A stretch of 64,000 nt of DNA from Halopseudomonas litoralis. Its GTDB lineage: Bacteria > Pseudomonadota > Gammaproteobacteria > Pseudomonadales > Pseudomonadaceae. The notes under the pieces are model-generated. The model made no database searches and was not told where the DNA came from. It saw nothing but the letters and a program-made list of their open reading frames with translations. This document shows, one piece after another, positions 16,783 through 38,681 of the stretch. The position numbers and the translations under genes are program-made. The stretch lies in contig NZ_LT629748.1 of NCBI RefSeq assembly GCF_900105005.1, positions 3,844,001 to 3,908,000 on the forward strand, read 5' to 3'. How positions within the stretch are numbered: position 1 is the first letter of the stretch; each line of letters starts with the position of its first letter.

Positions 16783-18236
<1,454 letters not shown>

Positions 18237-21375: not shown

Positions 21376-22719
21376 ATGTCTGATCTCAATACCCAGCGCC
21401 CTGCCGGACTGACCCCCGAGCAGCTTGATGCTTACTGGCTTCCCTATTCTGCCAACCGCCAGTTCAAATCCGATCCACGCCTCATCGTGGGGGCGGAGGG
21501 CAGTTATTACATCGATGCTGATGGCCGTAAGATATTTGACGGTCTATCTGGTCTCTGGTGTTGCGGGGCGGGGCATAACCGCCCGGAAATTGCCGAAGCG
21601 GTTGCCAAACAATTGCGTGAGCTGGATTACGCTCCGGCTTTCCAATTTGGTCATCCCAAAGCCTTCGAGCTGGCCGAGCGCATTACCCAGCTGACGCCGA
21701 AAGGCCTCGACCACGTGTTTTATACCAACTCTGGATCTGATGCCGCGGACACCTCGCTGAAAATCGCCCGCGCCTATTGGCGCAAGAAGGGCAAGCCGAC
21801 CAAAACCAAGCTCATAGGTCGCGCCAAAGGCTATCACGGCGTCAACTTCGGCGGCATCAGCCTGGGCGGTATCGGGGCTAACCGGATGCTGTTCGGGCAG
21901 GGGATCGATGCCGACCATCTGTCGCACACCTTGCTCAAGGAAAACCTCTTCAGTCGCGGCATGCCCGAGCGTGGTGTCGAACGTGCCGAGGATCTGCTGG
22001 AGCTGATTGCCCTGCATGACGCCTCGAATATTGCCGCCGTCATTGTTGAGCCCATGGCCGGTTCAGCCGGTGTATTGCCGCCGCCGGTAGGTTATCTGCA
22101 ACGCCTGCGCGAGATCTGTGACCAGCACGAGATTCTGCTGATTTTCGATGAGGTCATCACCGGCTTCGGGCGCATGGGCTCCAACACCGGCGCGGAAGAG
22201 TTCGGCGTTACCCCGGACATGATGAACGTTGCCAAGCAGCTCACCAACGGTGCTGTGCCGATGGGCGCGGTGATCGTGCAGCGCGAAATCTATCAGACCT
22301 TCATGGAGCAGGGCGGCCCCGACTACGCGATCGAATTGCCGCATGGTTATACCTACTCCGGTCACCCGGTAGCTTGTGCTGCGGCATTGGCCTCACTGGA
22401 TATTCTGCAGAATGACCGCCTGGTTGATCGGGTCAGGGAAATGAGCCCGATATTCGAGAACGCCCTGCATGGTCTCAAGGGGACCCGCTACGTAACGGAT
22501 ATCCGCAACTACGGGATGGCGGGCGCCTTGCAGATCGAGAGTCGCCCCGGTGAGCCGGCGCGCCGTCCTTATGAAATTGCCATGAAGTGCTGGGAAAAAG
22601 GCTTCTACGTGCGTTATGGCGGCGACACCATTCAATTGGGCATGCCCTTCATCGTTGAGCGTGAAGAGATCGACAACGTCATCAACGCTATCGGCGATGC
22701 CATCAACGAACTTGACTGA
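21376..22719 (+). CDS. Omega-amino acid (beta-alanine):pyruvate aminotransferase
   Basis: Transfers the amino group of beta-alanine (or beta-aminoisobutyrate) to pyruvate, giving malonate semialdehyde and L-alanine. 447 residues of the class III PLP fold: GLWCCGAGHNRPEIAEAV near the N-terminus, the PLP Asp in FDEVITGFGRMG and the Schiff-base Lys in NVAKQLTNGAVPMGAV. The family is close to P. putida omega-amino acid:pyruvate transaminase. It precedes mmsA by 37 bases, and MmsA uses the product, so the two form an operon. Confidence 0.92.
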   Translation: MSDLNTQRPAGLTPEQLDAYWLPYSANRQFKSDPRLIVGAEGSYYIDADGRKIFDGLSGLWCCGAGHNRPEIAEAVAKQLRELDYAPAFQFGHPKAFELAERITQLTPKGLDHVFYTNSGSDAADTSLKIARAYWRKKGKPTKTKLIGRAKGYHGVNFGGISLGGIGANRMLFGQGIDADHLSHTLLKENLFSRGMPERGVERAEDLLELIALHDASNIAAVIVEPMAGSAGVLPPPVGYLQRLREICDQHEILLIFDEVITGFGRMGSNTGAEEFGVTPDMMNVAKQLTNGAVPMGAVIVQREIYQTFMEQGGPDYAIELPHGYTYSGHPVACAAALASLDILQNDRLVDRVREMSPIFENALHGLKGTRYVTDIRNYGMAGALQIESRPGEPARRPYEIAMKCWEKGFYVRYGGDTIQLGMPFIVEREEIDNVINAIGDAINELD

Positions 22720-22756: not shown

Positions 22757-24247
22757 ATGAAGACGATCGGACACTTGATCAACGGCACCATTGATACCCA
22801 GTCCAGCCGTACCCAGGATGTTTTCAATCCATCCACGGGTGAGGTATCAAAGAAATTGGCAGTGGCGAGCAAGCCCACCGTCGAGGCAGCCATCGCCGCT
22901 GCCCAGGCCGCTTATCCCGCCTGGCGTAACACGCCACCCCTCAAACGCGCCAAGGTCATGTTCCGCTTCAAGGAACTGCTGGAACGTAATGCCGACGAAA
23001 TCTGTCGCCTGATTGGGGAAGAGCACGGCAAGATCGCCCATGACGCCATGGGTGAACTGCAACGGGGTATTGAGAACGTCGAATATGCCTGCGGCGCTCC
23101 CGAGCTGTTGAAAGGCGAATTCAGCAAGAATGCAGGACCGGCGATCGACTCCTGGAGCGAGTTCCAGCCGCTGGGTGTGGTGGCGGGCATCACGCCATTC
23201 AACTTCCCGGCCATGGTACCGCTGTGGATGTACCCCATGGCGATCGTCTGCGGTAATACCTTTGTACTCAAACCGTCCGAACGCAACCCGTCGGCGGTGC
23301 TGTTCATTGCCGAGCTGCTGCACGAAGCCGGCCTGCCGCCAGGCGTGCTGAACGTGGTCAATGGTGATAAGGAAGCGGTGGACGTGCTGCTGTCGGATGC
23401 GCGCGTCCAGGCGGTCAGCTTCGTTGGCTCGACGCCCATTGCCGAATATATCTACACCACGGCGAGCGCCCACGGCAAACGCTGTCAGGCGCTGGGTGGC
23501 GCGAAGAACCACGCCATCGTGATGCCGGATGCGGATATGGACAACGCGGTATCCGCCCTGGTGGGCGCTGCCTTCGGTTCATCAGGTGAGCGTTGCATGG
23601 CGCTGTCGGTTGCCGTGGCGGTAGGGGACGAGGCGGCTGATTCACTGATCAGTAAAATGACCGAGCAGATGAAAAGCCTGAAAGTGGGTGCTTTCTCTGA
23701 TAAGAGCAACGATTTTGGTCCGCTCATTACCCGTGCGCACCAGGAAAAGGTCACCGGTTATATCAGCAGTGCCGAACAGCAGGGTGCCACGCTGGTGGTC
23801 GATGGTCGTCAGCCGGCCGTGGCCGGCTACGACAAGGGATTCTATGTGGGTGGCACGCTGATCGATAACGTGACCGCTGAAATGACCTGCTATAAGGAAG
23901 AGATCTTTGGGCCGGTGTTGCTGGTCATGCGCGTCAACAGCATGGAGGAGGCCATGCAACTGATCAATGATCACGAGTACGGCAATGGCACCTGCATCTT
24001 TACCCGTGACGGTGAGGCGGCGCGTTATTTCAGTGACAACATCATGGTGGGTATGGTCGGCATCAACGTACCGCTGCCGGTGCCGGTGGCTTATCACAGC
24101 TTCGGTGGCTGGAAGCGCTCGCTGTTCGGTGACCTGCATGCCTACGGTCCGGATGCGGTGCGTTTCTACACCAAACGCAAAACCATTACCCAGCGCTGGC
24201 CATCAGCCGGGGTGCGGGAAGGCGCTCAGTTCTCCTTCCCTTCCTGA
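22757..24247 (+). CDS. mmsA: CoA-acylating methylmalonate-semialdehyde/malonate-semialdehyde dehydrogenase
   Basis: Oxidises malonate semialdehyde to acetyl-CoA or methylmalonate semialdehyde to propionyl-CoA, with NAD+ and CO2 release. 496 residues of the ALDH fold: ITPFNFPAMVPLWMYP, FVGSTPIAEY, catalytic Cys in GERCMALSVAV, and the MmsA-type LPVPVAYHSFGGWK near the C-terminus. It ends the upper strand of the pathway; the same enzyme serves both uracil- and thymine-derived intermediates. Confidence 0.95.
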   Translation: MKTIGHLINGTIDTQSSRTQDVFNPSTGEVSKKLAVASKPTVEAAIAAAQAAYPAWRNTPPLKRAKVMFRFKELLERNADEICRLIGEEHGKIAHDAMGELQRGIENVEYACGAPELLKGEFSKNAGPAIDSWSEFQPLGVVAGITPFNFPAMVPLWMYPMAIVCGNTFVLKPSERNPSAVLFIAELLHEAGLPPGVLNVVNGDKEAVDVLLSDARVQAVSFVGSTPIAEYIYTTASAHGKRCQALGGAKNHAIVMPDADMDNAVSALVGAAFGSSGERCMALSVAVAVGDEAADSLISKMTEQMKSLKVGAFSDKSNDFGPLITRAHQEKVTGYISSAEQQGATLVVDGRQPAVAGYDKGFYVGGTLIDNVTAEMTCYKEEIFGPVLLVMRVNSMEEAMQLINDHEYGNGTCIFTRDGEAARYFSDNIMVGMVGINVPLPVPVAYHSFGGWKRSLFGDLHAYGPDAVRFYTKRKTITQRWPSAGVREGAQFSFPS

Positions 24248-24311: not shown

Positions 24312-25382
24312 TCAACCAAGATAATGCCGCGGCACCCGATTCAGATTGCAGAACAACTGGTAAGCGATGGTGTCCGCCCAATCGGCGACCTCGTTGGCCG
24401 GCAAACCATCACCCCACAGCTGTACAGCGCTGCCCAGGCCGCATGCGGGCAGGTCGGTGAGATCGACTGTCAGCATATCCATGGACACCCGACCGATCAG
24501 CGCCGCACGCTGACCATCCACCAGAACGGGCGTACCGCTTTTTGCATGCCGGGGATATCCATCGGCATAGCCCATGGCGACCACCCCAATCCGGGTGGGA
24601 CGTTTGGCAATGAATTGCGCGCCGTAACCGACTGGCTCACCGCTGGCAACGTCGTGCACGGCAATAATCCGCGAATTCAGATGCATCACCGGTTTCAGCC
24701 TTGCGGCGCTTTTCTGAGCGAAGTTGAAGGGCGAGGCGCCGTACAACATGATGCCTGGTCGTAGCCAATCCCCATGGGCCTGTGGCCAGGCCAGGGCGCC
24801 GGGAGAATTACACAGGCTTGATGGGCCATCCAGATGGGCAGTGGTTTCATTGAAGCACAGCAGTTGATGCTGGGTCGTGTCGCAGTCCGGTTCGTCGGCG
24901 CGGGAGAAATGGGTCATCTTTACCAGGCTGGCCACTTTGCTACTCGCTTGCAGTGCTTTCCATATTCCTACATATTCTTCAGGCTTGAAGCCCACCCGGT
25001 GCATGCCGGTGTCCAGTTTCAGCCAGACATGCAATGGACGCTCGATGTCGATCTCAGCCAGGTCGCGCAGCTGACCATGATGATGAATGACCACCCACAG
25101 ATCATATTGCTGGATCAGTATCAGCTCCGCTGCGTCAAACCATCCTTCCAGCAATAGAATCGGTTGTTGAATACCGGCATTGCGCAGTAATAATGCTTCT
25201 TCTATACAGGCGACGGCAAAGCCATCCGCGGATGCACAAAGCGCTTGAGCGCAACGAACGGCGCCATGGCCGTAAGCATTGGCTTTTATGACCGCCAACG
25301 CTTTGTTTCCCGAAAGTTGCTTGGCCAACTGGTAGTTATGACGCAGAGCGCCAAGATCGATCAATGCATGGGCTGGACGCAT
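24312..25382 (-). CDS. alr: Alanine racemase
   Basis: Interconverts L- and D-alanine. 356 residues: PLP Lys33 in [10 protein letters not shown], catalytic Tyr region ([13 protein letters not shown]) and [12 protein letters not shown] 25382 gives the family N-terminus [16 protein letters not shown]; upstream in-frame residues overlap ridA and are not used. Last gene of dadA-ridA-alr, so probably catabolic (DadX-like), turning transaminase-derived L-alanine into the DadA substrate. Confidence 0.94.
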
Positions 25383-25405
25383 AGTCTTATTCCAGAATAT
25401 CGGTG

Positions 25406-25762
25406 TTAAACAGCGGCGGTCATGGCGATTTCCACCAGAATATTGGGCTCGACCTGTTTGGCTTCCAGGATGGCGCGAATGGGCGCTGTCCCTTCTGGCA
25501 GCCATTGGCCCCATATCCGGTCCATGGTCTCCAGGTCAGTCTTGAGGTTCTTCAGGTAAATGGTCGCGGACAACAGCCTGGTTTTATCGCTGCCGGCTTC
25601 CGTCAGGAGTGTCTCGATCGCTGCCAGGGTATTACCGGCCTGCACGCTTAGATCGTTGCCGAGCGGGCTGGTATCGGCAAATCTGCCCGTCAGATAAACC
25701 CTGTCCTGATGCATCAGGACCTGACTCATCAGGACATTGGTATAGGAAGATTGGATGTTCAT
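25406..25762 (-). CDS. ridA: RidA-family (YjgF/Rid) protein
   Basis: 118 residues with the Rid fold ([48 protein letters not shown]); the Arg in APIRAI is the residue that binds the carboxylate in deaminases. It hydrolyses reactive enamine/imine intermediates such as 2-iminopropionate, which DadA would release. It lies 17 bases after dadA and 23 before alr. Confidence 0.9.
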
Positions 25763-25773
25763 GCATGCGCTCC

Positions 25774-25786
25774 TTATTTTTATTTT
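25774..25786 (-). promoter_or_regulatory. Hfq/Crc-type motif spanning the dadA stop and the ridA ribosome site
   Basis: AAAATAAAAATAA on the coding strand contains the dadA TAA stop and runs into AAGGAG. Two AAnAAnAA matches overlap. Confidence 0.45.
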
Positions 25787-27039
25787 GCGTAACGCTCTAT
25801 CTCGAAACCGTCCATGCTGATAGCCATCTTGCTGCCGGCAATCCTGTCCACCAAGAGTTGGCTTGAGCCACAGGCCATGGTCCAGCCCAAGGTGCCATGA
25901 CCGGTGTTGAAGAACAGATTGCTCAACTTGCTGGCGCCGATGATCGGTGTGCCATCAGGTGTCATGGGGCGATAGCCGGTCCAGAAGTCCAACTCCTGCG
26001 CCTGGCCGCCCAGCGGGAACAGGTCGTTGATCACCATCTTCAGCGTGGCCCGGCGCTTTTCCCGAAGCTCGGTATCAAAGCCGGCCAGTTCTGCCATGCC
26101 GCCCACACGAATACGATCGGCCAAACGGGTAATGGCTACTTTGTAGGTTTCATCCATTATCGTTGACACCGGAGCCATCGAAGGGTCGGCAACCGGGATG
26201 GTCAGCGAATAGCCTTTGACCGGATAAATAGGCAGGCTGATACCCAGAGGCTTTACCAGCTGTGGTGAATAACTGCCCAGCGCCAGCACATAGTGATCCG
26301 CTGTCAGGACCTCGCCGTCGGCCAGGCTGACGCCCTGTATCCGGTTGTCATTTGCCTGCATGCTGCTGATCGTACGGTTGAACAGAAACTTGACCCCCAG
26401 CTCGGCACATTTGGCTGCGAGTTGGGTGGTGAACATATAACAGTCGCCGGTTTCATCATTGGGCAGGCGCAAACCGCCGACGAACTTATCCTTGCTGGGA
26501 GCCAGACCGGGCTCATGCTGAATGCAGCCGGCTCGGTCGAGTAACTGATAAGGCACGCCGCAGCGCTCCAGCACCGCGATATCCTTGGCCGCGGCATCGA
26601 GCTGCTTCTGGGTGCGGAACAGCTGCAAGGTACCCAGCTCGCGATGTTCATAATTCACGCCACTGTCGGCGCGCAGTTGCATCAGACAGTCGCGGCTATA
26701 CTCGGCCAGGCGCATCATGCGTTCTTTATTAACGGCATAGCGGCCTTCGGTACAGTTGGACAGCATCTGCATCATCCAGCGATATTGCTGCGGGTCGGCA
26801 GTAGGGCGGATGGCCAAAGGCGCATGCTCGGACAGCAGCCACTTGATGGCTTTGAGAGGAACGCCGGGGGCCGCCCAGGGAGCGGAGTAACCAGGTGAAA
26901 TCATGCCGGCATTGCCGAAGCTGGTTTCCAGGCCCGGGCCCGGTTGGCGATCGAGCACTGTCACTTCATAGCCCGCCTTAGCCAGATACCAGGCGCTGGT
27001 TATACCAAGTACGCCACTACCAAGAATCAGTACTTTCAT
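25780..27039 (-). CDS. dadA: D-amino acid dehydrogenase, small subunit type
   Basis: Oxidises D-alanine to pyruvate and ammonia, passing electrons through FAD to the respiratory chain. 419 residues: FAD-binding start [20 protein letters not shown], the [19 protein letters not shown] segment and the C-terminal [21 protein letters not shown] region are characteristic. First gene of dadA-ridA-alr, preceded by GGAGG. Placed beside beta-alanine transaminase, it would regenerate the pyruvate acceptor. Confidence 0.94.
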
Positions 27040-27316: not shown

Positions 27317-27997
27317 TTGGATCGAACCCCCTTCCATTTGACTGAAAGCGCCCCTGCAAATGACGACGCGGCCAAGCCCCGCAAGCGCTCAAGCGCCCGC
27401 AAAGCCCAGGAAGCCCGCATTCTGGACGCTGCCGAAACGCTATTCGCGCAATATGGCTACAACGGTGCATCTATCGAAGCGATTGCCGAGCAAGCCGGGT
27501 TGTCCAAACAGAACATGCTTTATTATTTTCCTTCCAAGGAAAACCTGTATCGCCATGTGCTGAAAAACGTACTTGATCTCTGGGTCGAAAAAATGACCCT
27601 GTTCGAACAGGCTGGTGATGATCCAGCCAGCAAATTGCGCAGCTATATCCTGGGCAAACTGGAACTGTCACAATTACGGCCCAATGGTTCCAAGATATTT
27701 GCCAATGAGATCATCAACGGCGCGCCTTATATCAAAGACTATCTACTGCAAAAGCTGTTGCCCAAACTTGATGCCGATATTGCTTTGGTCAAAGAATGGA
27801 TTGCCAATGGCTTGATGGATCCCATTGATCCTCACCACCTGTTCTTTTCCATCTGGGCTGCAACTCAGACCTATGCTGACTTTTCTACCCAGATTGCCTT
27901 GGTGTTGCGTAAAGACAGTCTGGATACCGGCGACTTTGACGCGGCAGGCGCGTTTCTTACCCACACCATCCTCAAAGGCACAGGGCTTACCAAATAG
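27317..27997 (+). CDS. rutR: RutR-like TetR-family regulator
   Basis: 226 residues. The HTH domain (AAETLFAQYGYNGASIEAIAE, then LSKQNMLYYFPSKENLYR) and the C-terminal domain (IFANEIINGAPYIKDYL; DPHHLFFSIWAATQTYADF) closely resemble E. coli RutR, which senses uracil/thymine. No ATG lies in frame near the domain start; TTG 27317 follows AAGAGGT at ideal spacing and is chosen. It faces the amidohydrolase gene convergently. Likely represses the pyrimidine/F420 block through the boxes at 20243 and 35924. Confidence 0.85.
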   Translation: MDRTPFHLTESAPANDDAAKPRKRSSARKAQEARILDAAETLFAQYGYNGASIEAIAEQAGLSKQNMLYYFPSKENLYRHVLKNVLDLWVEKMTLFEQAGDDPASKLRSYILGKLELSQLRPNGSKIFANEIINGAPYIKDYLLQKLLPKLDADIALVKEWIANGLMDPIDPHHLFFSIWAATQTYADFSTQIALVLRKDSLDTGDFDAAGAFLTHTILKGTGLTK

Positions 27998-28061: not shown

Positions 28062-29294
28062 TCAGCTATTGGCGCGTGCCACGACCGCCTGGAAAAGCAC
28101 GTTGCAGCCGGCGGCCAGATCTTCCGGCGTCGCATTTTCCGCTTCGTTATGGCTGATGCCGTTCTCGCAAGGCACAAAGACCATGGCCGTTGGTGCGACG
28201 CGGGAGATATAGCAGGCGTCATGCCCGGCACCGCTGACTATATCCCGGTGGCTATAGCCGAAATCCGTTGCCGCCTGGCGGACCAGGGCAACACAGTCGG
28301 CGTCAAAGGGGACGGGCGGGGAGTACCAGATCTGCTCGAAGGCCATTTCCAATCCCAATTCCGTAGAAACGGAATCGGCTGTTTCACGCAGCGCCTGATC
28401 CATTTTTGCTAGGGCTTCGGCATCGGGGTGGCGGAAATCCACGGTAAAGAACACTTGCCCGGGAATCACGTTGCGTGAGTTGGGGAACACCTGCAGCAGA
28501 CCAACGGTAGCGCAGGCATTGGGTTGATGAGCGAGGCCGATTTTATTGACCTGATCAATCAACCGGGCGGCGCCGACCAAGGCATCCCGCCGCCGGCTCA
28601 TTGGCGTAGGGCCAGCATGGGACTCTTGCCCGGTCAGGGTGATTTCATACCAGCGCTGGCCTTGTGCGTCAGTGACTACGCCAATCTGTTTTTTCTCGTC
28701 TTCGAGGATTGGACCCTGCTCGATATGCGCCTCAAAGAATGCCTTGAATGGGCGCCCACCGACATCGTCGGGGCCGTTATAGCCGATACGCGCCAGCTCT
28801 TCACCCATGGTCTTGCCATCCAGGTCAGCGCGGCTCAAACCATAATCCAGTTCAAACACACCGGCAAACACGCCGGATGCCACCATCGCCGGTGGAAAGC
28901 GCGAGCCTTCCTCGTTGGTCCAGACCGAGGCTTCAATAGGCGCCTGGGTGTCCATGCCCTGATCATTCAAGGTGCGAATGACTTCCAGGCCGGCCAGTAC
29001 GCCGTAGATCCCGTCGAACTTGCCGCCGGTAGGCTGGGTATCCAGGTGGCTACCCATCACCACGGGCGGCAGCGAATCATCCAGTCCGGCGCGGCGAGCG
29101 AAGATATTGCCCATCTTGTCCACGCGGATGGTGCAGCCCGCGTCTTTGCACCATTGCACGAACAGGTCACGGCCCTGCTTGTCCAGATCGGTCAGGGCCA
29201 GCCGACAGACGCCGCCTTTTTCGGTACCGCCAATCTCGCCCATATCCATCAAGCTTTGCCACAGCCGTTGCTGGTTGATCATGGTTTTCTGCAT
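28062..29294 (-). CDS. Zn-dependent amidase/hydrolase, probable N-carbamoyl-beta-alanine amidohydrolase
   Basis: Predicted to hydrolyse N-carbamoyl-beta-alanine (or the beta-aminoisobutyrate analogue) to the beta-amino acid, CO2 and ammonia. 410 residues of the M20/HyuC-AmaB family: H83 and D94 (GSHLDTQPTGGKFDG), E128/E129 (TNEEGSRFPPAM), FEAHIEQGP and the late metal His in ISHNEAENA. Family members also act on allantoate or N-carbamoyl-alpha-amino acids; the neighbouring dihydropyrimidinase and transaminase favour the beta-alanine route. Distal gene of the F420 operon. Confidence 0.88.
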   Translation of the reverse strand: MQKTMINQQRLWQSLMDMGEIGGTEKGGVCRLALTDLDKQGRDLFVQWCKDAGCTIRVDKMGNIFARRAGLDDSLPPVVMGSHLDTQPTGGKFDGIYGVLAGLEVIRTLNDQGMDTQAPIEASVWTNEEGSRFPPAMVASGVFAGVFELDYGLSRADLDGKTMGEELARIGYNGPDDVGGRPFKAFFEAHIEQGPILEDEKKQIGVVTDAQGQRWYEITLTGQESHAGPTPMSRRRDALVGAARLIDQVNKIGLAHQPNACATVGLLQVFPNSRNVIPGQVFFTVDFRHPDAEALAKMDQALRETADSVSTELGLEMAFEQIWYSPPVPFDADCVALVRQAATDFGYSHRDIVSGAGHDACYISRVAPTAMVFVPCENGISHNEAENATPEDLAAGCNVLFQAVVARANS

Positions 29295-29315
29295 TGTGAA
29301 TGCCTCATTCGATCA

Positions 29316-29326
29316 TTATTGTTTTT
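29316..29326 (-). promoter_or_regulatory. Hfq/Crc-type motif before the amidohydrolase gene
   Basis: AAAAACAATAA on the coding strand, about 21 bases before the ATG and just before the ribosome site. It holds overlapping AAnAAnAA units and the same core as at tsx and NCS1. Confidence 0.45.
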
Positions 29327-29363
29327 ACCCCTGGACACCGGCGGCGACGCCGCCGGTATCAGC

Positions 29364-30368
29364 TCAGGTGCGGAACTTGGGAATGATGTGTTCGCCATAC
29401 TGGGCGATGATGTTTTCCTCATCGCCATTATCCAGATAGATATTGAACTGCGTGGCGCCGGCGGCCTTGAGCTCATTGAGCTTGCTGACATGCTGTTCGG
29501 CTTCACCCAGCACACAGAAGCTTTCTACGATGTCCGGGGTGATGAAGTCCAGATAGGGGTTATCGCTCTGGCCATGCTTGGAGTAGTCATAGCCCTTACG
29601 CTTTTCGATATAGTCGGTCAGGCTGGCGGGGACGGTACCGCTGTCGCTGCCGTACTTTTCAACGATGTCGGCAACGTGGTTGCCGACCATGGCCGGGAAC
29701 CATTTAGTGGCTTCGATGCACTCGTCCCGGCTACCGAAATAGGCCGGGGCGGCGACGATCACCTTGTAATTGTCCATGTCACGACCGGCTTCCTTGCCAG
29801 CGCTGATGCTCTGCTCAGCCAGCCATTTGACAATGCTCGGTTCGCCGATCTGCAGAATGACACCATCGCCCACTTCCCCTGCGGTTTTCAGGGCCATGGG
29901 ACCATAGGCGCCGATATGCACGGGCAGTTCGTAGCCATCGGCCCAGGGGAATTTAACCGGCTCAGGGCACTCACCATAAAGTACCTCTTCACCCCGGATC
30001 ATGGCTTTTACCTTGGTGGTGAATTCAGCCACCCGCGCCAGCGAGGCAGGTTTCTTGCCCATCACCCGGACCGAACTGTCGCCGCGGCCCAGGCCGATAT
30101 CGAAGCGCCCGCCGCTTTGCTTGGCCAGACTGCCGAACAGGCTGGCGGCCAGCGACCAATCACGGGCGTTGGGGTTGGTGACGCACGGTGCAAAGCGCAT
30201 CTTCTTGGTGTGCTCCATACACATGGCAATCGCGGGATAACATTCGCGCCACAGAATATGCGAGTCATAGAACCAGCAATAAGCGAAACCAGCTTCTTCA
30301 GCCTGTATGACCAAGCTGCGGGCCCGTTCGGGGCTGACAAAACCTTTAAAGCAGATACCGAATTCCAT
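29364..30368 (-). CDS. F420-dependent luciferase-like oxidoreductase, CPS_4043/TIGR03842 type
   Basis: 334 residues of the bacterial-luciferase-like TIM barrel, close in pattern to methylene-H4MPT reductase: MEFGICFKGFVSPERA at the start, GGRFDIGLGRGDSSVR near residue 90 and VHIGAYGPMALKTAGEVGDG in the middle. I recall TIGR03842 as an F420-dependent family of unknown function, often the only F420-type LLM enzyme in proteobacterial genomes. ATG 30368 directly follows AGGAGAATAACA; a longer frame is rejected. Lying between npdG and the amidohydrolase gene, with no PreT/PreA in the window, it is the best candidate for an F420H2-dependent uracil/thymine reductase. Confidence 0.85.
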   Translation of the reverse strand: MEFGICFKGFVSPERARSLVIQAEEAGFAYCWFYDSHILWRECYPAIAMCMEHTKKMRFAPCVTNPNARDWSLAASLFGSLAKQSGGRFDIGLGRGDSSVRVMGKKPASLARVAEFTTKVKAMIRGEEVLYGECPEPVKFPWADGYELPVHIGAYGPMALKTAGEVGDGVILQIGEPSIVKWLAEQSISAGKEAGRDMDNYKVIVAAPAYFGSRDECIEATKWFPAMVGNHVADIVEKYGSDSGTVPASLTDYIEKRKGYDYSKHGQSDNPYLDFITPDIVESFCVLGEAEQHVSKLNELKAAGATQFNIYLDNGDEENIIAQYGEHIIPKFRT

Positions 30369-30375
30369 TGTTATT
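30368..30375 (-). promoter_or_regulatory. Hfq/Crc-type motif at the LLM gene start
   Basis: AATAACAA, whose last A is the A of the ATG, lies between AGGAG and the start and matches AAnAAnAA. Confidence 0.4.
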
Positions 30376-30408
30376 CTCCTATGTCGGTAGGTGTTACTCA
30401 TTGCTGCA

Positions 30409-31077
30409 TCAGGCGTCTGGCGCGCAGATGCGGATTCCTGCGTGGGTGAAAGGGACTTTCTTGGAAATATTCAGGCGGATCAGGATCGGTGTGATGGCCT
30501 CGATACAGCGGGCACTGCTGGCCGGACCGCAGTCATAGGCGACTACGTCCATCCTGTTGATCAGCTCAATGATCTTGTCCTTGGCTGGCACGGCGTCGCC
30601 GCAGACCAGAACATCGCAGTTGATGGCGTGATCAAGCTTGTTCAGGCTGGCCGCGGAGATGTTGTGCAGCGCGCCGACCACCGGAATGGCCTCGCCCAGC
30701 AGCTGTTGGGCGGCTTCGGTCGCCGAGCCGGCGGCCGGCATGGCAACTGCCCGTGGATTACCTTCGGCCAGTGGCACCACGATATCGACCAGAATCTTGT
30801 CTTGCAGCAGTTCAGCAATCGATTCGAGCGTGGCGTCGTGGGCGGCGTAAGGTACAGCCAGAATCACTACCTCGTCGGCGGCACCCACCGCATCGCGAAT
30901 ATCCATGCCGCGAATGGCGGCGGCTGAGTCCGGCAGCAAGGCCTGGAGTTCCTGCGCTGTGGTATTGGCGCGTTTCGCATCGCGCGAGCCAATTGCCACC
31001 GGGACGCCGGCGCGCGCCCAGCGTAAAGCCAATCCCCGGCCCTGTGGGCCGGTACCGCCTAGAATTGCAATGGTCAT
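30409..31077 (-). CDS. npdG: F420:NADP(H) oxidoreductase (NpdG/Fno-like)
   Basis: Transfers hydride between NADPH and F420. 222 residues with an N-terminal NADP-binding Rossmann fold ([23 protein letters not shown], then [12 protein letters not shown], whose Ser-Arg suits the 2'-phosphate) and the NpdG-type middle ([29 protein letters not shown]). It overlaps cofE by four bases and lies 41 bases before the LLM gene. As the only F420 reductase in view it should supply F420H2. Confidence 0.9.
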
Positions 31078-31856
31078 CGGAAGAGATCCTCTTTTTGTGG
31101 TCTTATCAGGTCAGTTGCCGAGCTGGGGGCGGATTCCCAATCCACGCCCTGGAAGAGAATTGCGGGTGTTTTGCCGTTCTTGCTCATCAGCAAGCCCGAA
31201 GCGGCAGCTATTTCATCGGCCAGGGCCGGGATGGTGACGGCCAGTTCGCGGCCAAAGGCATCCTGTTCGCCGATCAGGCTGACCTGAGCAGGCACATTGG
31301 CCAGGCCTATGGCGACGTTGACCAACCCCATCCGCCAGGGGCGGCCGAAGGTATCGGTGATCACCACACCCAGACGCACGGCGAAGGTCTCCTCGAGCGC
31401 GGCGCAGATCCGCCGGGCGCTGCTGTCGGGGTCCTTGGGCAACAGAATGACGGTGTTCTCTTCGCCCACGTTGGATTCATCCACCGCCGCGTTGGCGCAG
31501 ATAAAGCCCAGCCGGTGTTCGGCGATCAGGATGCCTTCGGCTTGCTGGGGATGCTTGAACGCCCGCACCACGCGGCGGGACTCACGCAGGATCACTTCGA
31601 TCTTGCGCGGGTCCTTGTTCAGCTCTGTCGCCAGTTGCCGGGCCTCTTCACCAGGCTCGATACCGTCCAGCGACACCACCTGGCCTTCTGCTTTGGAAAC
31701 GACCTTGTGGGCAATGACCAGAATGTCGCCGTCGTTCAATACGACATCATTGCTGCGAATGGCCTTGACCAGGACATCGGCCAGGTCATCGCCGGGCAGA
31801 ATATCGGCAATCCCGGCCAGGGCGGTCATGCTCAGACTCTTGGATTGGCTCAACAT
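31074..31856 (-). CDS. cofE: F420-0:gamma-glutamyl ligase, single-domain CofE
   Basis: Adds gamma-linked glutamates to F420-0 using GTP. 260 residues with [21 protein letters not shown] near residue 40, [15 protein letters not shown] in the middle and the [12 protein letters not shown] segment. ATG 31856 overlaps the cofC end by seven bases; ATG 31829 is possible. It lacks the C-terminal nitroreductase-like domain found in actinobacterial FbiB. Confidence 0.93.
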
Positions 31857-32551
31857 GCGGGAACTCCCTGGCTCGGCATGGGCCGGTAAGTGGGCGACGA
31901 TGGAGTTGGCTGATGCTGCCACGGCGCGTCGAGCTCCAGGTAGTCCGGCTCGCTGGATTGGCTGAGCAGGTGGGACAGGTCAGCCGGTGTATCAATATCA
32001 AAGCGCAGTTTTGGAAGATGGATCAGGCTGCAGGTGATGCCCCGGCGATGTGCGGCATTCCAGTGCTGGTCACTTGAATGAAGGCCAAACTGGAAGGGCA
32101 GGATATCCGGCGGCGTGGTCAGCAGGGCATTGGTGCCGCGATCATGTGCCGGGCTGATCAGCACTGACGGAACCGGTCGCGGGTGATTGATCAGCGCACG
32201 CAGTTCGGCTTCATCCAGTTGGGCTATATCTGCGGGGATCAACAGCTGCGAATCATAGCCTTGGGCACAACTCCATTCTGCTGCCAGATGCGCTGCCGCG
32301 GACATGCCGCTTGGATGGCTTTCACGCAAGACTGCCGCGCCATAACTGCTGGCCAGTTGGGCAATGGTGTCGCACGCGGTGACCACCAGCACGTCCTGCT
32401 CGGGCATGCAGTCACGGAAAAACGTCAAGGTGCGCTCGCATAGCCAGCGCGCCAGTGCTGCCCGGCGACTAGGGCCGCATAACGGCTCCAGCCGGGATTT
32501 GGCATCAGCAAAATCCCGCACCGGGATCACTACCAGAGTTTTCATCAGCAT
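31850..32551 (-). CDS. cofC: Phosphosugar guanylyltransferase of F420 biosynthesis (CofC)
   Basis: Activates 2-phospho-L-lactate, phosphoenolpyruvate or 3-phosphoglycerate with GTP for transfer by CofD. 233 residues with the nucleotidyltransferase start VVIPVRDFADAKSRL and the LLIPADIAQLDEAEL metal-binding segment. The ATG sits eight bases behind GAGGAG and overlaps the cofD end. Which three-carbon acid is used cannot be told by eye. Confidence 0.88.
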   Translation of the reverse strand: MLMKTLVVIPVRDFADAKSRLEPLCGPSRRAALARWLCERTLTFFRDCMPEQDVLVVTACDTIAQLASSYGAAVLRESHPSGMSAAAHLAAEWSCAQGYDSQLLIPADIAQLDEAELRALINHPRPVPSVLISPAHDRGTNALLTTPPDILPFQFGLHSSDQHWNAAHRRGITCSLIHLPKLRFDIDTPADLSHLLSQSSEPDYLELDAPWQHQPTPSSPTYRPMPSQGVPAC

Positions 32552-33516
32552 GCCTGCTTCTCCTCTGTAAGCTGGCCTTGGGCGAACTGCAGCAGCTCGC
32601 CGGCCAGACGAGCTTTGTCGGCGGTATCTCGCATCAGCGTATGGGTGACCATGACATCGATACCGCGCGCTTTCAGGGCGTCGGCCTCTGCCTGGTCCTG
32701 CTGGTCGATGATCAGTCCGTCAATCAGGTCGGCATAACAATCGGCAATCCCGAGGTTATTGCAGCTGTAACCACAGGCGCTGAGCATGCGGTCGGCGGGG
32801 CCCTTGACGGTGGCGCCGCCAATCAACGGAGAGACCGCGATCTTGATCGCGTTGGACAGGGCAAATGCCTGCCCCAGGCCGGGTATGGCCAGGATCGGCC
32901 CGATGCTGACAATCGGATTGCTCGGGGCGATCACCAGCAGATCCGCCTCACGGATGGCGGCGAGGGCTTCCGCCGTTACCGTGGCGCGCTCAAGGCCATC
33001 AAGCTGAATTTCCAGAATTTCGGGCTGGCATTGTTCGCGGACAAAGTATTCCTGGAACGACAGCCAGCCCTGGGGTGTTCTGATCCGGGTTTGTACGCGG
33101 TCATCGGTAGGCAGGACGATATTGCTCTGTACGCCGAAGGACTCCGCGATCCGCTGGGCGATAAGGCTGGGTCGGACTCCCTGCTGGCGCAAGTGGGTAC
33201 GCATGATATGAGTGGCCATATCCTGATCACCCAGATACATCCAGCTGTCACATCCCAGGCGTTTCAGGCCATCGAGCACACGGTTGCTTTCATCGGCCAG
33301 GCCCCAGCCTTTGCTGCTGTCGATCCGGCCTGCCAGGGTATAGGTCAGGGTGTCGATATCCGGAGATACCCACAGTCCGTGAAACGCCTGGTCATCGGCG
33401 ACATTGCCGATGATGCTGAGCTGGCCGGGCTCACAAATGGATGCCAGGCCCACCGCAAGCTTGGCACCGCCGACCCCGCCGGCGAGCAGGGTGATACGTG
33501 GCCGGCGACTGTTCAC
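32545..33516 (-). CDS. cofD: 2-phospho-L-lactate transferase (CofD)
   Basis: Joins the activated three-carbon phosphate to the deazaflavin Fo, giving F420-0 or its dehydro form. 323 residues with LLAGGVGGAKLAVGLAS at the N-terminus, NVADDQAFHGLWVSPDIDT and the late APSNPIVSIGPIL segment, all typical of CofD. The GTG start overlaps the cofH stop (GTGA). Confidence 0.94.
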   Translation of the reverse strand: MNSRRPRITLLAGGVGGAKLAVGLASICEPGQLSIIGNVADDQAFHGLWVSPDIDTLTYTLAGRIDSSKGWGLADESNRVLDGLKRLGCDSWMYLGDQDMATHIMRTHLRQQGVRPSLIAQRIAESFGVQSNIVLPTDDRVQTRIRTPQGWLSFQEYFVREQCQPEILEIQLDGLERATVTAEALAAIREADLLVIAPSNPIVSIGPILAIPGLGQAFALSNAIKIAVSPLIGGATVKGPADRMLSACGYSCNNLGIADCYADLIDGLIIDQQDQAEADALKARGIDVMVTHTLMRDTADKARLAGELLQFAQGQLTEEKQAC

Positions 33517-34733
33517 AGTGCTGCTCCGGCATAACGTGGCGCGGCTGGCGCGGCCTCGGGGGCATCGTAAACGGTAATGTGGCGATACAGCGTATTGCGC
33601 CGGACCGGCTGGCGCCGCATGTTGCGCATGATCTGGACGAAGCTGTCCGGATGCATTTCCTGACCGTGTTCAGCGCCTGCCGCCCGGGAAATGCTTTCGT
33701 TCATCAGGGTGCCGCCCAAGTCGTTCACCCCGGCGCTGAGCATCTGCTGAGCCAATTCCGGCCCCAACTTGACCCAGGACGCCTGGATGTTATCGATCCA
33801 GCCGTTGAGCATGAGACGGGCGACGGCGTGCATGCGGATATGCTCCAGCCGGGTAGGGCCGGGTCTTACGCCGGCGTGCTCCAGATACAGCGGCGTCTTG
33901 TGATGAATGAACCCCAGTGGCACAAACTCGGTGAAGCCGCCGGTTTCCTTCTGGATATCGCGCAACAGGGCCAGGTGCGCTGCCCAGTGTTCGGGTCCGT
34001 CAATATGGCCGTACATGATGGTGGAGGTGGTGGGCAGCCCCAGCTTGTGGGCGGTTTTGACAATCTCCACCCACTCTTCGGTGGTCAGCTTGTCGCGGGT
34101 CAGCTGCTGGCGGATGGTGGTATCAAGAATCTCTGCCGCTGTGCCGGGCATCGAGCCCAGGCCGTGATCGATCAGGTCCTGGATAAACTCGGCATAGGAC
34201 ATCTTGCTTTTGCGCGCGCCAAACCAGATTTCAAAGGGCGAGAACGCATGAATATGCATATCCGGCAGCTTGGCTTTTATCGCCTTGAGCATGTCTCGAT
34301 AGAAATGCCCGGGGATGTTCGGGTGCAAGCCGCCCTGAATGCAGACTTCGGTTGCGCCTCGGTCCCAGGCTTCCTGGGCTCGCGCAACAATTTCATCCAG
34401 ATCAAAGAACTCGGCTTCGGGATCATCTTTGCGTTTGGCGAAACTGCAGAAACGGCAGCCCATGTAGCAGACATTGGTATAGTTGATGTTGCGGTTGATT
34501 ACGAACGTCACCGTATCGCCGACACTGGCCCGTCGCAATTGATCAGCGCAGGCTGTTAATGCATCCAACTCAGCGCCTTCGGTCTGGAATAAGGTAATAG
34601 CGTCCGCTTGGTTAAGTTCCTGGCCAGCTAATACATTTTCGAGAATGGTTCGTACTGTTAAGCCAACGCCTGGTTGGTAAAGTTCTTTTACTGACTCATG
34701 CAAAGCAATGTTTTCTGACACTGATATGTTCAT
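33513..34733 (-). CDS. cofH: Fo synthase subunit 2 (CofH), radical SAM
   Basis: With CofG it makes the deazaflavin Fo, the redox core of F420, from tyrosine and a flavin-pathway pyrimidine. 406 residues with the radical SAM cluster CYMGCRFC (CX3CX2C), then EVCIQGGLHPNIPG and HIHAFSPFEIWFGA. ATG 34733 lies eight bases after GAGGA; the frame continues up to a GTG but that start has no ribosome site. Confidence 0.94.
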   Translation of the reverse strand: MNISVSENIALHESVKELYQPGVGLTVRTILENVLAGQELNQADAITLFQTEGAELDALTACADQLRRASVGDTVTFVINRNINYTNVCYMGCRFCSFAKRKDDPEAEFFDLDEIVARAQEAWDRGATEVCIQGGLHPNIPGHFYRDMLKAIKAKLPDMHIHAFSPFEIWFGARKSKMSYAEFIQDLIDHGLGSMPGTAAEILDTTIRQQLTRDKLTTEEWVEIVKTAHKLGLPTTSTIMYGHIDGPEHWAAHLALLRDIQKETGGFTEFVPLGFIHHKTPLYLEHAGVRPGPTRLEHIRMHAVARLMLNGWIDNIQASWVKLGPELAQQMLSAGVNDLGGTLMNESISRAAGAEHGQEMHPDSFVQIMRNMRRQPVRRNTLYRHITVYDAPEAAPAAPRYAGAAL

Positions 34734-34744
34734 TGCGGAGTTCC

Positions 34745-35875
34745 TCAAGACAGGCACTGTTGTAACGCCAGACCATCAGCCCGGGCGATTGCGGATAACC
34801 GGGGAGCCACTTCACCAGTAAAGAAATGCTGAGGGCGCTCCAGATAGCGGGGATATACCGCGAGGCGCTCTTCAAGACCGTAGCCACAGTCTGCTGTCGC
34901 ACGGCGAAGTGATTCTATCTGCGGCCACGCGCGTTCCGGGTTGATATGGTCGATGGTCAATGGGGAGACACCGCCCCAGTCATTGATGCCGGCAGCGATA
35001 TAGGCTGCGAAGCGGCTTTCCAGATTGGGAGGCGCCTGCAGGCTGATGGACGGGTCAAGCAGCAGGCGGGCCAGTACCAGGGTGCGGACCATATCGTCCA
35101 GGCTGGGCTCGGGATGGCCGGCCATCGCGGTACCGGGCTTGGCCCGGAAATTCTGCACTATGACTTCCTGGATATGGCCATGTTCGAGATGCAGATTATT
35201 GATGGTCATCAGGCTATCGACGCGCTCTGCCCAGGTTTCACCTATGCCGATCAGAATGCCGGTAGTGAAAGGCACACCCAGGCGGCCCGCCCGGTCCAGG
35301 GTGCGAATACGCTGCACCGGGACTTTGTCGGGGCAGGCGTAATGGGCGCCGCCCTTGGCGATCAGACGGCGGCTGACATTCTCCAACATCATGCCCATGC
35401 TCACACTGTGCGGCTTGAGGAGTCGGATATCCGCTTCGGAGAGTGTGCCGGCATTCACATGGGGTAGCATGCTGCTTTCGCTCATTACCATGGCGCAGAC
35501 TTCGGCCAGATAACTGATCATGCTGGTATGCCCCTGACGGGCGAGGGCGGCCTGTGCTTCCGGGTAACGCAACTCGGGCTTTTCGCCCAGGCTGAACAAC
35601 ACTTCCTTACAGCCCATGCGCTCACCGTCATGAACAATCTGCATAACTTCAGCAGGGGTCATCAGACGTGCATTGGGGGAGTCGGGCTTTTGAACGAAGG
35701 TGCAATAACCGCAATCGTCACGGCACATATTGGTAAGTGGAACGAAAACCGCCCGTGAATAAGTCAGGGCTTGGCCCCAATGCACATCACGAATGCCGGC
35801 CGCTTGTTTGGCCAGTTCGGTAAATTCGTCATCGGGCGCCTTTTCAAGCGCTAGTGCCTGTGAACGGGTCAACAT
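34745..35875 (-). CDS. cofG: Fo synthase subunit 1 (CofG), radical SAM
   Basis: Partner of CofH. 376 residues with the radical SAM cluster CRDDCGYC in FVPLTNMCRDDCGYCTF, FSLGEKPELRYP and the terminal RLAVYPRYL. ATG 35875 is about 11 bases from GGAGG; ATG 35884 is only two bases from it and less likely. It is the promoter-proximal gene of cofG-cofH-cofD-cofC-cofE-npdG-LLM-amidohydrolase. CofG and CofH are separate, unlike the fused FbiC of actinobacteria. Confidence 0.93.
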   Translation of the reverse strand: MLTRSQALALEKAPDDEFTELAKQAAGIRDVHWGQALTYSRAVFVPLTNMCRDDCGYCTFVQKPDSPNARLMTPAEVMQIVHDGERMGCKEVLFSLGEKPELRYPEAQAALARQGHTSMISYLAEVCAMVMSESSMLPHVNAGTLSEADIRLLKPHSVSMGMMLENVSRRLIAKGGAHYACPDKVPVQRIRTLDRAGRLGVPFTTGILIGIGETWAERVDSLMTINNLHLEHGHIQEVIVQNFRAKPGTAMAGHPEPSLDDMVRTLVLARLLLDPSISLQAPPNLESRFAAYIAAGINDWGGVSPLTIDHINPERAWPQIESLRRATADCGYGLEERLAVYPRYLERPQHFFTGEVAPRLSAIARADGLALQQCLS

Positions 35876-35923: not shown

Positions 35924-35939
35924 TTTACCAGTCGGTAAA
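35924..35939. promoter_or_regulatory. RutR-like operator of the F420 operon
   Basis: TTTACCA-GT-CGGTAAA lies inside a longer perfect palindrome with nine-base arms (35921-35942, four-base centre). It matches 11 of 14 defined bases of TTGACCA-N2-TGGTCAA. It would cover the start of transcription from the promoter just upstream, so a repressor role fits. Confidence 0.6.
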
Positions 35940-35942
35940 AAC

Positions 35943-35972
35943 AGAGTAGGTCATATTTTCCCGAATGGTCAA
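35943..35972 (-). promoter_or_regulatory. Candidate sigma-70 promoter of the F420 operon
   Basis: Minus strand: -35 TTGACC (35972-35967), 18-base spacer, -10 TACTCT (35948-35943). The -35 is good and the -10 weak. The -35 also contains a TGGTCAA half-site (35966-35972). Confidence 0.45.
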
Positions 35973-36183: not shown

Positions 36184-36858
36184 TCAGATCGCCGCGGCGG
36201 CGGAGCGGTACAGTGAGACCTGCCGAAAGAGTTCCGGCTCGCCCAGATCCGGCCAGGTCTGACCGCTGAGGGTGGCGACCCGCCGATAGCCGGGATGTTG
36301 CAGATCACGTACCCGCGAATCCGCTATCAATACTTCATTGGCGCGACCGAGGAAATGGTCGAGGAAGCCGTGGTTGTCCCGGTCGTACAGCACATCGGCG
36401 GCGAAGATCAGGTCCAGCTCATCGGTGACGGCAAAGTAATCATCCGCCAGTTCGATGCCCAGACCGTTGAGCTGCGCATTCATCGCGCTGGCCAGGCGTG
36501 CCGGGTGATCCAGATCGCAGGCGATGCTCTGCCGTGCACCTGCGGCGCTGCATGCCAGCGCAACTATCCCCGAGCCGGCACCGAAATCCAGCACCCGTTT
36601 GCCGCGCACCTGTTCTGGATGATCGAGAATCCAGCGCGCCAGCGCCAACCCGCTGCCCCAGCAGAATCCCCAGTAGGGCGGCTGTTCCAGCAGGCGTTGG
36701 GTTTCTTCGCTGGCAAAGGCGCGATCCAGATTGACCGGGTCAAGCAGCCATAGCCGCAGTTCGGGCAGCTGGGGCAGCGCACTGACGGCCAATTGGGCGT
36801 CCGGCAAAATCCGATGCAGAGCCTGTTGCAGAGCGTCGATCGGGCCGAGTGCAGGCAT
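36184..36858 (-). CDS. Class I SAM-dependent methyltransferase (ETFB-KMT/L11-type)
   Basis: 224 residues with SAM motif I VLDFGAGSGIVALACSAAGA, motif II-like IACDLD and DLIFAADVLYD. The N-terminal WGFCWGSGLALARWI segment is characteristic of the group that includes protein lysine methyltransferases. ATG 36858 is chosen because upstream in-frame residues look non-coding. It is transcribed away from nrdR. Substrate unknown. Confidence 0.85.
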   Translation of the reverse strand: MPALGPIDALQQALHRILPDAQLAVSALPQLPELRLWLLDPVNLDRAFASEETQRLLEQPPYWGFCWGSGLALARWILDHPEQVRGKRVLDFGAGSGIVALACSAAGARQSIACDLDHPARLASAMNAQLNGLGIELADDYFAVTDELDLIFAADVLYDRDNHGFLDHFLGRANEVLIADSRVRDLQHPGYRRVATLSGQTWPDLGEPELFRQVSLYRSAAAAI

Positions 36859-37081
36859 GGCTGAATACCTTGATGGAAAAGGGCGGCATTGTAGCGCGCC
36901 AGCGCAGTGTCGGTGAATCAGTCTGATGAGGCTGACGCGGGAGAGAGCAGGGTGCGGCAACAAGCCCCAGGTTAACACTGGCTTACTTTAATAACCCCGT
37001 GTCTGCGAGTATGCTATGGGCCTTCTAAAAACCCAGCATGGCCGTACGCGGCTGCTGTTCTGACCTTTACTGGATCCGAGC

Positions 37082-37555
37082 ATGTATTGTCCCTTTTGTG
37101 GCGCCAATGACACCAAGGTAATTGATTCCAGGTTGGTGGCGGACGGTGGCCAGGTACGTCGCCGGCGTGAGTGCCTCGCCTGTCAGGAACGTTTCACGAC
37201 CTTCGAGACTGCCGAGTTGGTGTTGCCCCGGCTCATCAAGCAGGACGGTCGGCGTCAGCCATTCGATGAGGACAAGCTGCGGGCCGGCCTGCTGCGTGCG
37301 TTGGAAAAACGCCCGGTCAGTGTCGAGCAGATCGAGGCGGCGCTGGGCCGCATCAAGCATCAGCTACGCGCCACCGGCGAGCGCGAAATCAAGGCGATGG
37401 TGGTTGGCGAGATGGTCATGGCCGAGCTCAAGCAGCTGGATGAGGTGGCTTACATCCGCTTTGCTTCTGTCTACCGGCGTTTTCAGGATCTCAACCAGTT
37501 CCGTGAAGAGATCGATCGTCTGTCCCGAGGCGAGCCGGGCGACCCCAATGCCTGA
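37082..37555 (+). CDS. nrdR: Transcriptional repressor NrdR
   Basis: Represses ribonucleotide reductase genes in response to the ATP/dATP ratio. 157 residues: zinc ribbon with CPFCG and CLACQERF (two Cys pairs), then an ATP-cone from about residue 48. It starts the nrdR-ribD unit and overlaps ribD by eight bases. Confidence 0.97.
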
Positions 37556-38681
37556 AGAGTTCGCCGACCGTCGCCTGATGGCTCGGGCCATTCAATTGGC
37601 CGCCAAGGGGCTGTATACCACTGAGCCAAACCCCAGGGTGGGCTGTGTACTGGCGCGCGACGGTGAGATTGTCGGAGAAGGCTGGCATGTCTGCGCAGGA
37701 GAAGGACACGCAGAAGTCAATGCCTTGGCCCAGGCCGGCGAGCAGGCTCGCGGGGCGACGGCTTATGTCACTCTGGAACCCTGCAGCCACTTCGGCAAGA
37801 CCCCGCCCTGTGCAGACGCGCTGATCAACGCGGGTGTCAGCCGGGTGGTTGCCGCCATGCAGGACCCCAATCCCCAGGTCGCCGGTCAGGGTCTGGCACG
37901 TTTGCGTGCTGCCGGCATCAAGGTCGATTGCGGGCTGCTGGAAAGCGATGCGCGTGACCTCAATCCGGGATTCATCAAACGCATGCAGCAGGGGCTGCCC
38001 TGGGTAAGACTGAAACTGGCAATGAGTCTGGATGGCCGCACGGCCATGGCCAGCGGTGAAAGCCAATGGATCACCGGACCGCAGGCCCGTGCCGATGTGC
38101 AGCGCCTGCGCGCCCGCAGTGGTGCGGTCATCAGTGGTGCCGACAGTGTGCTGCTGGACGATTCGGCATTGACCGTACGCGCTGCCGAACTGGGGCTGGA
38201 TATCGAGCTGGCGCAGGCCGCAGCGGCAAGACAGCCGCTGCGGGTGCTGGTGGATGGTCAGCTGCGTGTGCCTTTGCAGCAGCGATTATTCCGCGAAGCC
38301 GGCCCGGTGCTGGTGGTCTGTACTGATCCGCAGCAGTGCGCAGCGGATTATCTCTCGCAGCAGATAGAGCTGCTTACGCTGCCCGGTGCGGACGGCAAGG
38401 TTGATCTCGGCGCCCTGCTGCGCGAGTTGGGGCAGCGTGGCTGTAACGAGGTGCTGGTGGAGTCCGGTGCCGGTTTGGCGGGCGCGTTCTGGCGTGCCGG
38501 GCTGGTGGATGAATTGATCGTCTATATGGCGCCGAGGCTGCTGGGTAGCCGGGCGCGACCGCTGTTGGAACTGCCCTTCGATGAGATGGCCGAGGCCATG
38601 GATCTCGATGTGACTGACATGCGGGTTATCGGCCGTGATTGGCGGATCACGGCGCGACCGGTTTTTTCCTTCCGAGAGTAA
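37548..38681 (+). CDS. ribD: Bifunctional riboflavin biosynthesis deaminase/reductase RibD
   Basis: Deaminates then reduces the pyrimidine intermediate from GTP. 377 residues: the deaminase domain has the zinc sites HAEVNAL and [15 protein letters not shown]; the reductase domain starts near residue 150 ([24 protein letters not shown]). ATG 37548 overlaps nrdR. The intermediate formed here also feeds Fo synthesis by CofG/CofH. Confidence 0.96.

Follow-up and report, generated by a model that had tools for sequence, protein, structure and literature searches.

The closest described counterparts of the locus considered here are the Pyd clusters for reductive pyrimidine catabolism (PMC7332683, in its passages on these clusters; E. 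coli preTA). There, PydA or PreTA, with FMN, FAD and Fe-S clusters, takes the first step, followed by dihydropyrimidinase (HydA/PydB), an amidase, an aminotransferase and a semialdehyde dehydrogenase. The later steps recur in a 64,000-nucleotide stretch of the Halopseudomonas litoralis genome (the window; bases 3,844,001-3,908,000 of a 3.99 Mb single contig), and the NCS1 transporter and TetR regulator genes found here also lie near PreTA in many of 15 PreTA loci. In place of PydA, however, this locus has a one-domain F420 protein of the luciferase-like monooxygenase (LLM) family, and an operon for synthesis of the cofactor belongs to the apparent regulon. The cluster is very probably a reductive pyrimidine pathway in which the LLM protein acts as an F420H2-dependent dihydropyrimidine reductase, supplied by NpdG and replacing dihydropyrimidine dehydrogenase.

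Two other proteins offer parallels. SSGG-03002/NpsU, a putative F420/FMN-dependent oxidoreductase from mureidomycin and napsamycin synthesis, saturates a uracil ring at its C5-C6 double bond (by genetics and nuclear magnetic resonance), and F420 is the suspected cofactor; unlike the protein proposed here it acts on a uracil-containing antibiotic and not in catabolism, and its cofactor is unproven (PMC10714638, in its account of this enzyme). The predicted F420-dependent 'yanthine' reductase of Chloroflexota is likewise a luciferase-family protein, standing in the place of YgfK/UacX for a ring reduction, but its substrate is a purine (uric acid clusters), and the relevant passages of PMC12507026 describe no linked cof operon. 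The pertinent sections of a 2021 review report no experimental study of F420-dependent enzymes in non-actinobacterial bacteria, and only trace F420 in Paracoccus denitrificans; structures of a Thermomicrobium F420 enzyme have since been deposited. Nitrogen limitation induces the reductive uracil pathway of Mycobacterium smegmatis, in which some genes are still unassigned. A search of the open-access PMC literature (preprints and subscription papers lying outside it) found no description of an F420-dependent reductase of uracil catabolism.

Cofactor genes within a pyrimidine locus

Genes were judged by NCBIfam, TIGRFAM and Pfam bit scores against curated cut-offs (given as score vs cut-off). 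Eight genes lie on the minus strand where a preliminary description of this DNA had placed them, all above NCBIfam cut-offs. In order of transcription these are cofG and cofH, for the FO synthase subunits (34745-35875, ATG at 35875, TIGR03550, 454 vs 213 bits; 33513-34757, TIGR03551, 521 vs 374); cofD, 2-phospho-L-lactate transferase family (32545-33516; TIGR01819, 294 vs 257); cofC, guanylyltransferase (31850-32551; TIGR03552, 145 vs 105); cofE, F420-0:glutamate ligase (31074-31856, ATG at 31856; TIGR01916, 252 vs 181); npdG/fno, NADPH:F420 oxidoreductase (30409-31077; TIGR01915, 197 vs 150); the LLM gene, encoding the predicted F420H2-dependent dihydropyrimidine reductase (29364-30368, ATG at 30368; TIGR03842, 498 vs 295); and a pydC-type M20 amidohydrolase, a predicted beta-ureidopropionase (28062-29294; TIGR01879, 435 vs 204; NF006769, 693 vs 452). 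CofG, CofH, CofD, CofC and CofE, each above its TIGRFAM cut-off, form a complete synthesis set, from which F420 would be produced. CofE aligns full-length with the single-domain ligase model; on the model of 449 positions its match covers the first half only.

The junctions are much as first described. Overlaps of 13, 4, 7, 7 and 4 bp join cofG/cofH, cofH/cofD, cofD/cofC, cofC/cofE and cofE/npdG, and 69 bp separate the LLM gene from the amidase gene; the npdG-LLM gap measures 40 bp, rather than the 41 bp given before. The amidase had been called N-carbamoyl-beta-alanine-type. Its placement in the carbamoylase family is borne out, while the beta-alanine label derives from context: the matching models name hydantoinase/carbamoylase, allantoate amidohydrolase and Zn-dependent hydrolase families and do not separate the substrates. 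Inspection by eye of the LLM-amidase spacer (29295-29363, minus strand) showed a GC-rich hairpin with a stem of about 9 bp and a 3-base loop, not followed by a T-run; perhaps such a structure uncouples LLM and amidase expression. A promoter scan returned no site, and an Rfam scan no match.

Conservation of the gene run was assessed in the best 80 of 270 confirmed LLM matches, at 73% identity or more. Counts from these loci describe the near clade and many close relatives; the nearest belong to Halopseudomonas and to near Pseudomonas species. In 75 of the 80 the LLM gene is immediately preceded by npdG, and 68 have a member of the amidase family, so the arrangement exceeds chance.

Two further observations concern the upstream side of the operon. 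A PrmA/lysine-methyltransferase-like protein is encoded just upstream of cofG (36184-36978, minus strand) and is kept beside cof in four other loci (L008, L009, L011, L012). Beyond it, nrdR and ribD (37082-38681) adjoin the operon; CofH draws its pyrimidine substrate from the ribD pathway, but the adjacency could be coincidence.

The preliminary description did not set out the wider pathway. On the minus strand lie genes for a Tsx-like nucleoside channel, probably for outer-membrane uptake (15376-16182; PF03502, 45 vs 27 bits), the dihydropyrimidinase HydA/PydB (16783-18228; TIGR02033, 619 vs 393) and the NCS1 nucleobase:cation symporter (18300-19790; TIGR00800, 368 vs 353). The plus strand carries an AptA-type omega-aminotransferase gene, predicted to encode beta-alanine transaminase (pydD; 21376-22719; NF052567, 732 vs 500), one for a CoA-acylating (methyl)malonate-semialdehyde dehydrogenase (MMSDH; 22757-24247; TIGR01722, 679 vs 448.5) and one for a RutR-like TetR regulator (27377-27997; PF08362, 151 vs 25; the open reading frame begins at 27116, with homology from near 27377). 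Together with the amidase, the genes at 15.4-28.0 kb are the reductive pyrimidine pathway set out in the cluster descriptions of PMC7332683, minus the usual first enzyme. The same interval also holds a LysR regulator, an alanine racemase and a D-amino acid dehydrogenase; the latter two (24312-27039) could recycle alanine if pyruvate is the amino acceptor of AptA.

These parts suggest a simple scheme. Uracil, and probably thymine, would enter through Tsx and NCS1, and NpdG would reduce F420 with NADPH. The LLM protein would pass a hydride from F420H2 to C6 of the pyrimidine ring and so form dihydrouracil, with no need for the Fe-S clusters and flavins on which the usual enzyme relies. HydA would then open the ring, and the M20 amidase would release beta-alanine, ammonia and CO2. 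Finally, AptA would convert beta-alanine to malonate semialdehyde, and the dehydrogenase would form acetyl-CoA. Uracil, when bound, would release the RutR-like repressor from boxes before cofG and the pyrimidine genes, so that, we propose, uracil would switch on synthesis of the cofactor.

The candidate reductase and its regulator

What replaces the first enzyme? In the H. litoralis genome the PreA model found no match, and PF01180 found only a dihydroorotate dehydrogenase of the quinone type and a single weak match resembling FabK, neither a canonical PydA/PreA. The genome encodes four luciferase-family proteins, among which the TIGR03842 member is the sole F420 type; the rest match NtaA/DmoA and MsnO8 (other F420 enzyme classes lay outside the search). 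With no PreA found, the LLM protein, as the only reductase of the cluster without an assigned substrate, is therefore the natural candidate for conversion of uracil to dihydrouracil. From an F420 reductase in a pyrimidine regulon to a uracil reductase is an inferential step, but a strong one.

The window protein, 97% identical to one from Pseudomonas sp. G11-1, is a member of TIGR03842 (F420_CPS_4043), which NCBIfam lists as a hypothetical equivalog; the model name gives no function, and the function is proposed here. Its modelled fold is predicted to be nearest to F420-dependent Mer, the methylene-tetrahydromethanopterin reductase, with RutA folds ranking below F420 enzymes (VIA-align ranking of the Foldseek list). 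It is not itself a Mer: it scores 117 vs 349 bits on TIGR03555, and the position of the catalytic Glu6 is Cys in the window protein, Thr by majority in A1 and Val in Streptomyces. Residues 232-282 are 59% identical between the proteobacterial and Streptomyces clades, as against 38% elsewhere in the protein. Such conservation would fit one substrate common to both clades.

Co-occurrence of these genes argues for a functional link. Homologues were sought by tblastn at E 1e-10 (E 1e-5 in the run covering the Streptomyces cluster and the RutR contact residues). Whole-genome counts cover 77 LLM-bearing genomes of 79 sought: HydA is found in 75 and CofH in all 77. The baseline, a class panel of 274 genomes with H. 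litoralis included, has HydA in 10 and CofH in 12. Within the DNA sampled at the 80 loci, CofH occurs in 74, a RutR-like TetR gene in 68, NCS1 in 49, HydA in 33, and amidase or HydA in 69; neither PreT nor PreA occurs in any. Over the 80 loci, distances between LLM proteins track those of their neighbours, with correlations of 0.84 for CofH, 0.80 for CofE, 0.74 for HydA, 0.71 for CofD, 0.70 for the amidase, 0.66 for NCS1 and 0.62 for NpdG, values that shared descent alone would also be expected to give. The preliminary description held that its reading would fall if cof and amidase genes never co-occurred in related genomes, and these counts contradict that outcome.

The regulator may connect the two gene groups. 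It aligns with E. coli RutR structures at 152 bits over 176 residues, and all five residues that contact uracil in RutR (W77, Y97, W167, Q171 and Q179) are identical. These contacts, and a palindromic box of about 16 bp, are taken from the description of RutR in PMC10891134. Like the Rut pathway, then, this locus has a regulator with the uracil-contact residues; RutA of the Rut pathway, by contrast, is an FMN monooxygenase. The regulator scores 192 vs 368 bits on the RutR equivalog TIGR03613, a point that counts against full identity with RutR; therefore it is called only RutR-like.

Scans used what we take to be the RutR box consensus, the palindrome TTTACC..GGTAAA. At three mismatches or fewer the window has 11 boxes against 1.98 expected, and three of these are intergenic, each with three mismatches: one before NCS1-hydA (20243-20258) and two before cofG (35924-35939, which is conserved in relatives, and 35957-35972, at a distance of 33 bp). 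Relatives repeatedly show such pairs, with boxes 31-35 bp apart. Across the 80 loci, 158 boxes fall within 72,793 upstream bases (those before cofG/cofH, HydA, NCS1, amidase, TetR, AptA, LLM, methyltransferase or LysR genes) and 160 within the other 1,418,509, a 19-fold enrichment; the loci are related, so box ratios overstate independence. Dinucleotide shuffles of the upstream bases gave a mean of 3.35 (20 shuffles, maximum 9); for 40 permuted palindromes the mean was 1.98 (maximum 7). Among readable loci, 61 of 73 have a box before cof, and 34 of 57 have one before HydA, NCS1 or the amidase. In PreTA clusters the same box stands before PreT (three loci, one box perfect) or before the amidase/TetR pair: 11 boxes lie in 17,698 upstream bases and 12 in 268,766 others, with no upstream box in 7 of the 15 loci.

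Mobile and distant copies

The unit is present in Gamma-, Alpha- and Betaproteobacteria. Plasmids carry the gene in ten Leisingera records, in Paracoccus alcaliphilus and in a Streptomyces megaplasmid. Searches for direct repeats found no useful family, and phage records gave no match. On a Leisingera plasmid (L211, 5263-8280), NAD(P) transhydrogenase alpha and beta genes stand between the aminotransferase gene and cofG, and may supply NADPH to NpdG. On the P. alcaliphilus plasmid, an ABC transporter and an adenosylcobinamide amidohydrolase follow the cof-npdG-LLM cluster, possibly indicating a different use.

Elsewhere the linkage takes other forms. Four metagenome-assembled genomes (G470, G474, G475 and G491) have LLM loci free of cof genes, and encode CofH elsewhere in a frame of 840-864 residues, as expected for an FbiC fusion; at one of these loci (L203) the LLM gene comes right after HydA. 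Streptomyces sp. BHT-5-2 (L212, 6070-13020) encodes a TIGR03842 protein (590 vs 295 bits), 41% identical to the window protein, whose match begins at base 12001, just past a HydA frame (554 vs 393 bits) that ends at 11992. About 2-4 kb upstream lie genes for a carbamoylputrescine amidase-like protein (258 bits, below the cut-off of 410) and an aminotransferase (no model above cut-off among the matches listed). LLM-HydA linkage thus extends, in one actinobacterial record, to another phylum with a different amidase, and this cluster is a candidate actinobacterial version of the pathway.

Alternative readings and the biology of F420

Several observations weigh against an F420-dependent uracil reductase. 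Strict mutual exclusion of LLM and PreA, the first prediction, failed: in the PreA search, which covers 49 of the 77 LLM genomes and leaves 28 outside, PreA is above cut-off in 7 of 49, all Rhodobacterales (L072, L076, L077, L079 and L084, Limimaricola; L083, Ruegeria; L086, Thalassovita), so the LLM protein is not always a replacement. HydA has no match in two LLM genomes (G438, G484), and neither amidase nor HydA is found in the DNA sampled at 11 of the 80 loci, 7 of which have less than full flanks. No cof box at three mismatches is present in 12 of 73 loci, including Paracoccus denitrificans, Cohaesibacter and four of five Limimaricola, and no such box precedes HydA, NCS1 or the amidase in 23 of 57. 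No hydA lies within 14 kb of the P. alcaliphilus cluster (L210, 8614-17821). Where the LLM proteins of the two phyla resemble each other most, the model is at its least certain (residues 241-290, pLDDT about 63-70). Eleven of the 12 class-panel genomes with CofH have no TIGR03842 protein. Finally, in-vitro assays of the mureidomycin enzyme SSGG-03002 failed (PMC10714638, in the section concerned).

The seven exceptions share a pattern. PreT, PreA, TetR, amidase and HydA form one set in all seven, and at least two HydA proteins are found in seven of seven, compared with 6 of the 42 other LLM genomes (P 2e-5). The second HydA-amidase set adjoins the cof operon in four cases (L196, L200, L201, L202), while in L197-L199 the contig stops before any cof gene; NCS1 is seen in six of the seven. 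Since each exception has a separate PreTA-HydA set, 'one reductase per pathway set' was adopted, post hoc. Motiliproteus, another LLM genome, has a PreA match below cut-off; Paracoccus denitrificans and Cohaesibacter have the LLM protein without PreA. In the class panel, all five genomes with PreA have HydA above cut-off beside PreTA. Four others have HydA but neither reductase; these HydA proteins are 38-42% identical to that of the window and are probably other cyclic amidohydrolases. With TIGR03842 in 1 of 274 genomes, H. litoralis only, this panel has no power on exclusion, and a family panel of 148 genomes (LLM in 5, PreA in 12, none in common) is too small for a test. Of 19 genomes from the genus, the LLM protein is encoded in 4 and PreA in none.

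Two sets in one genome would also fit two substrates, and the second set might serve another pyrimidine. The LLM protein would then be an F420 enzyme of the same pathway that acts on thymine only, a modified pyrimidine or hydantoin, or that catalyzes an oxidation, with uracil reduced by other means; the broad carbamoylase/amidohydrolase matches of the amidase accord with this. Yet PreA above cut-off is missing from 42 of the 49 genomes as well as from H. litoralis, the presence of AptA and MMSDH suggests that a beta-amino acid is formed, and the regulator retains every uracil contact, so that another substrate appears unlikely. A connection by joint travel only, with F420 serving general redox or detoxification needs, draws on the plasmids, the spread over three proteobacterial classes, the P. 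alcaliphilus unit and the CofH genomes that have no LLM protein. The shared boxes speak against it, as do the near-constant HydA, adjacent or not, the four metagenome-assembled genomes in which CofH lies apart (one with LLM after HydA) and the Streptomyces pair; mere hitchhiking is very improbable.

The remaining two readings change the chemistry or the pathway. An FMN-dependent monooxygenase that cleaves uracil like RutA was rejected, and is scarcely credible: the best sequence and fold matches of the LLM protein are F420 enzymes; none of its 15 NCBIfam matches at E 1e-3 is a RutA-named model, although the library was not checked for one; and CofH accompanies it in all 77 LLM genomes searched. 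Moreover, after RutA cleavage HydA and the carbamoyl-amidase would have no use. Degradation of hydantoins, allantoin-like ureides or another cyclic amide was likewise rejected. The allantoate amidohydrolase name among the amidase models, and the allantoin permease models that NCS1 matches below their cut-offs, lean that way; but HydA passes the dihydropyrimidinase equivalog with allantoinase models below cut-off, the RutR-like regulator and its boxes and the malonate-semialdehyde route indicate pyrimidines, and an F420 reductase has no obvious role there, leaving this reading highly improbable.

The claim for a dihydropyrimidine reductase supplied with F420H2 has a local and a general part. 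The preliminary description proposed a whole cofactor pathway dedicated to one catabolic reduction; the sole F420-type LLM protein, the missing PreA, the co-occurrence and the shared boxes favour this, whereas the seven PreA genomes and the CofH genomes without TIGR03842 restrict it. The latter (G155, G157, G164, G238, G240, G267, G304, G308, G359, G411 and G414) mostly have FbiC-length frames. Other F420 uses therefore exist in the class, which limits the generality of the link between F420 and uracil, and the claim was accordingly narrowed from 'many proteobacteria' to carriers. In that form, it is on balance probable that TIGR03842 represents an F420H2-using dihydropyrimidine reductase of a second kind, unrelated to the first and common to Proteobacteria and Actinobacteria, and that in carrier proteobacteria F420 serves chiefly pyrimidine catabolism and is made with uracil present.

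If this holds, the rare cofactor F420 would have a definite function in these bacteria, in which a cofactor operon under a pyrimidine-type regulator feeds one predicted reductase, and a family listed as hypothetical gains a proposed function. Uracil reduction would have a second solution, beside PydA with its FMN and Fe-S clusters (as characterized in the enzyme passages of PMC7332683). The trace F420 of Paracoccus denitrificans, a carrier, could thereby be explained, and the plasmid-borne modules may partly account for the uneven distribution of F420 genes among proteobacteria. Moreover, TIGR03842 may supply an unassigned uracil-reduction gene of streptomycetes and mycobacteria, and is a suggested candidate for the M. 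smegmatis pathway.

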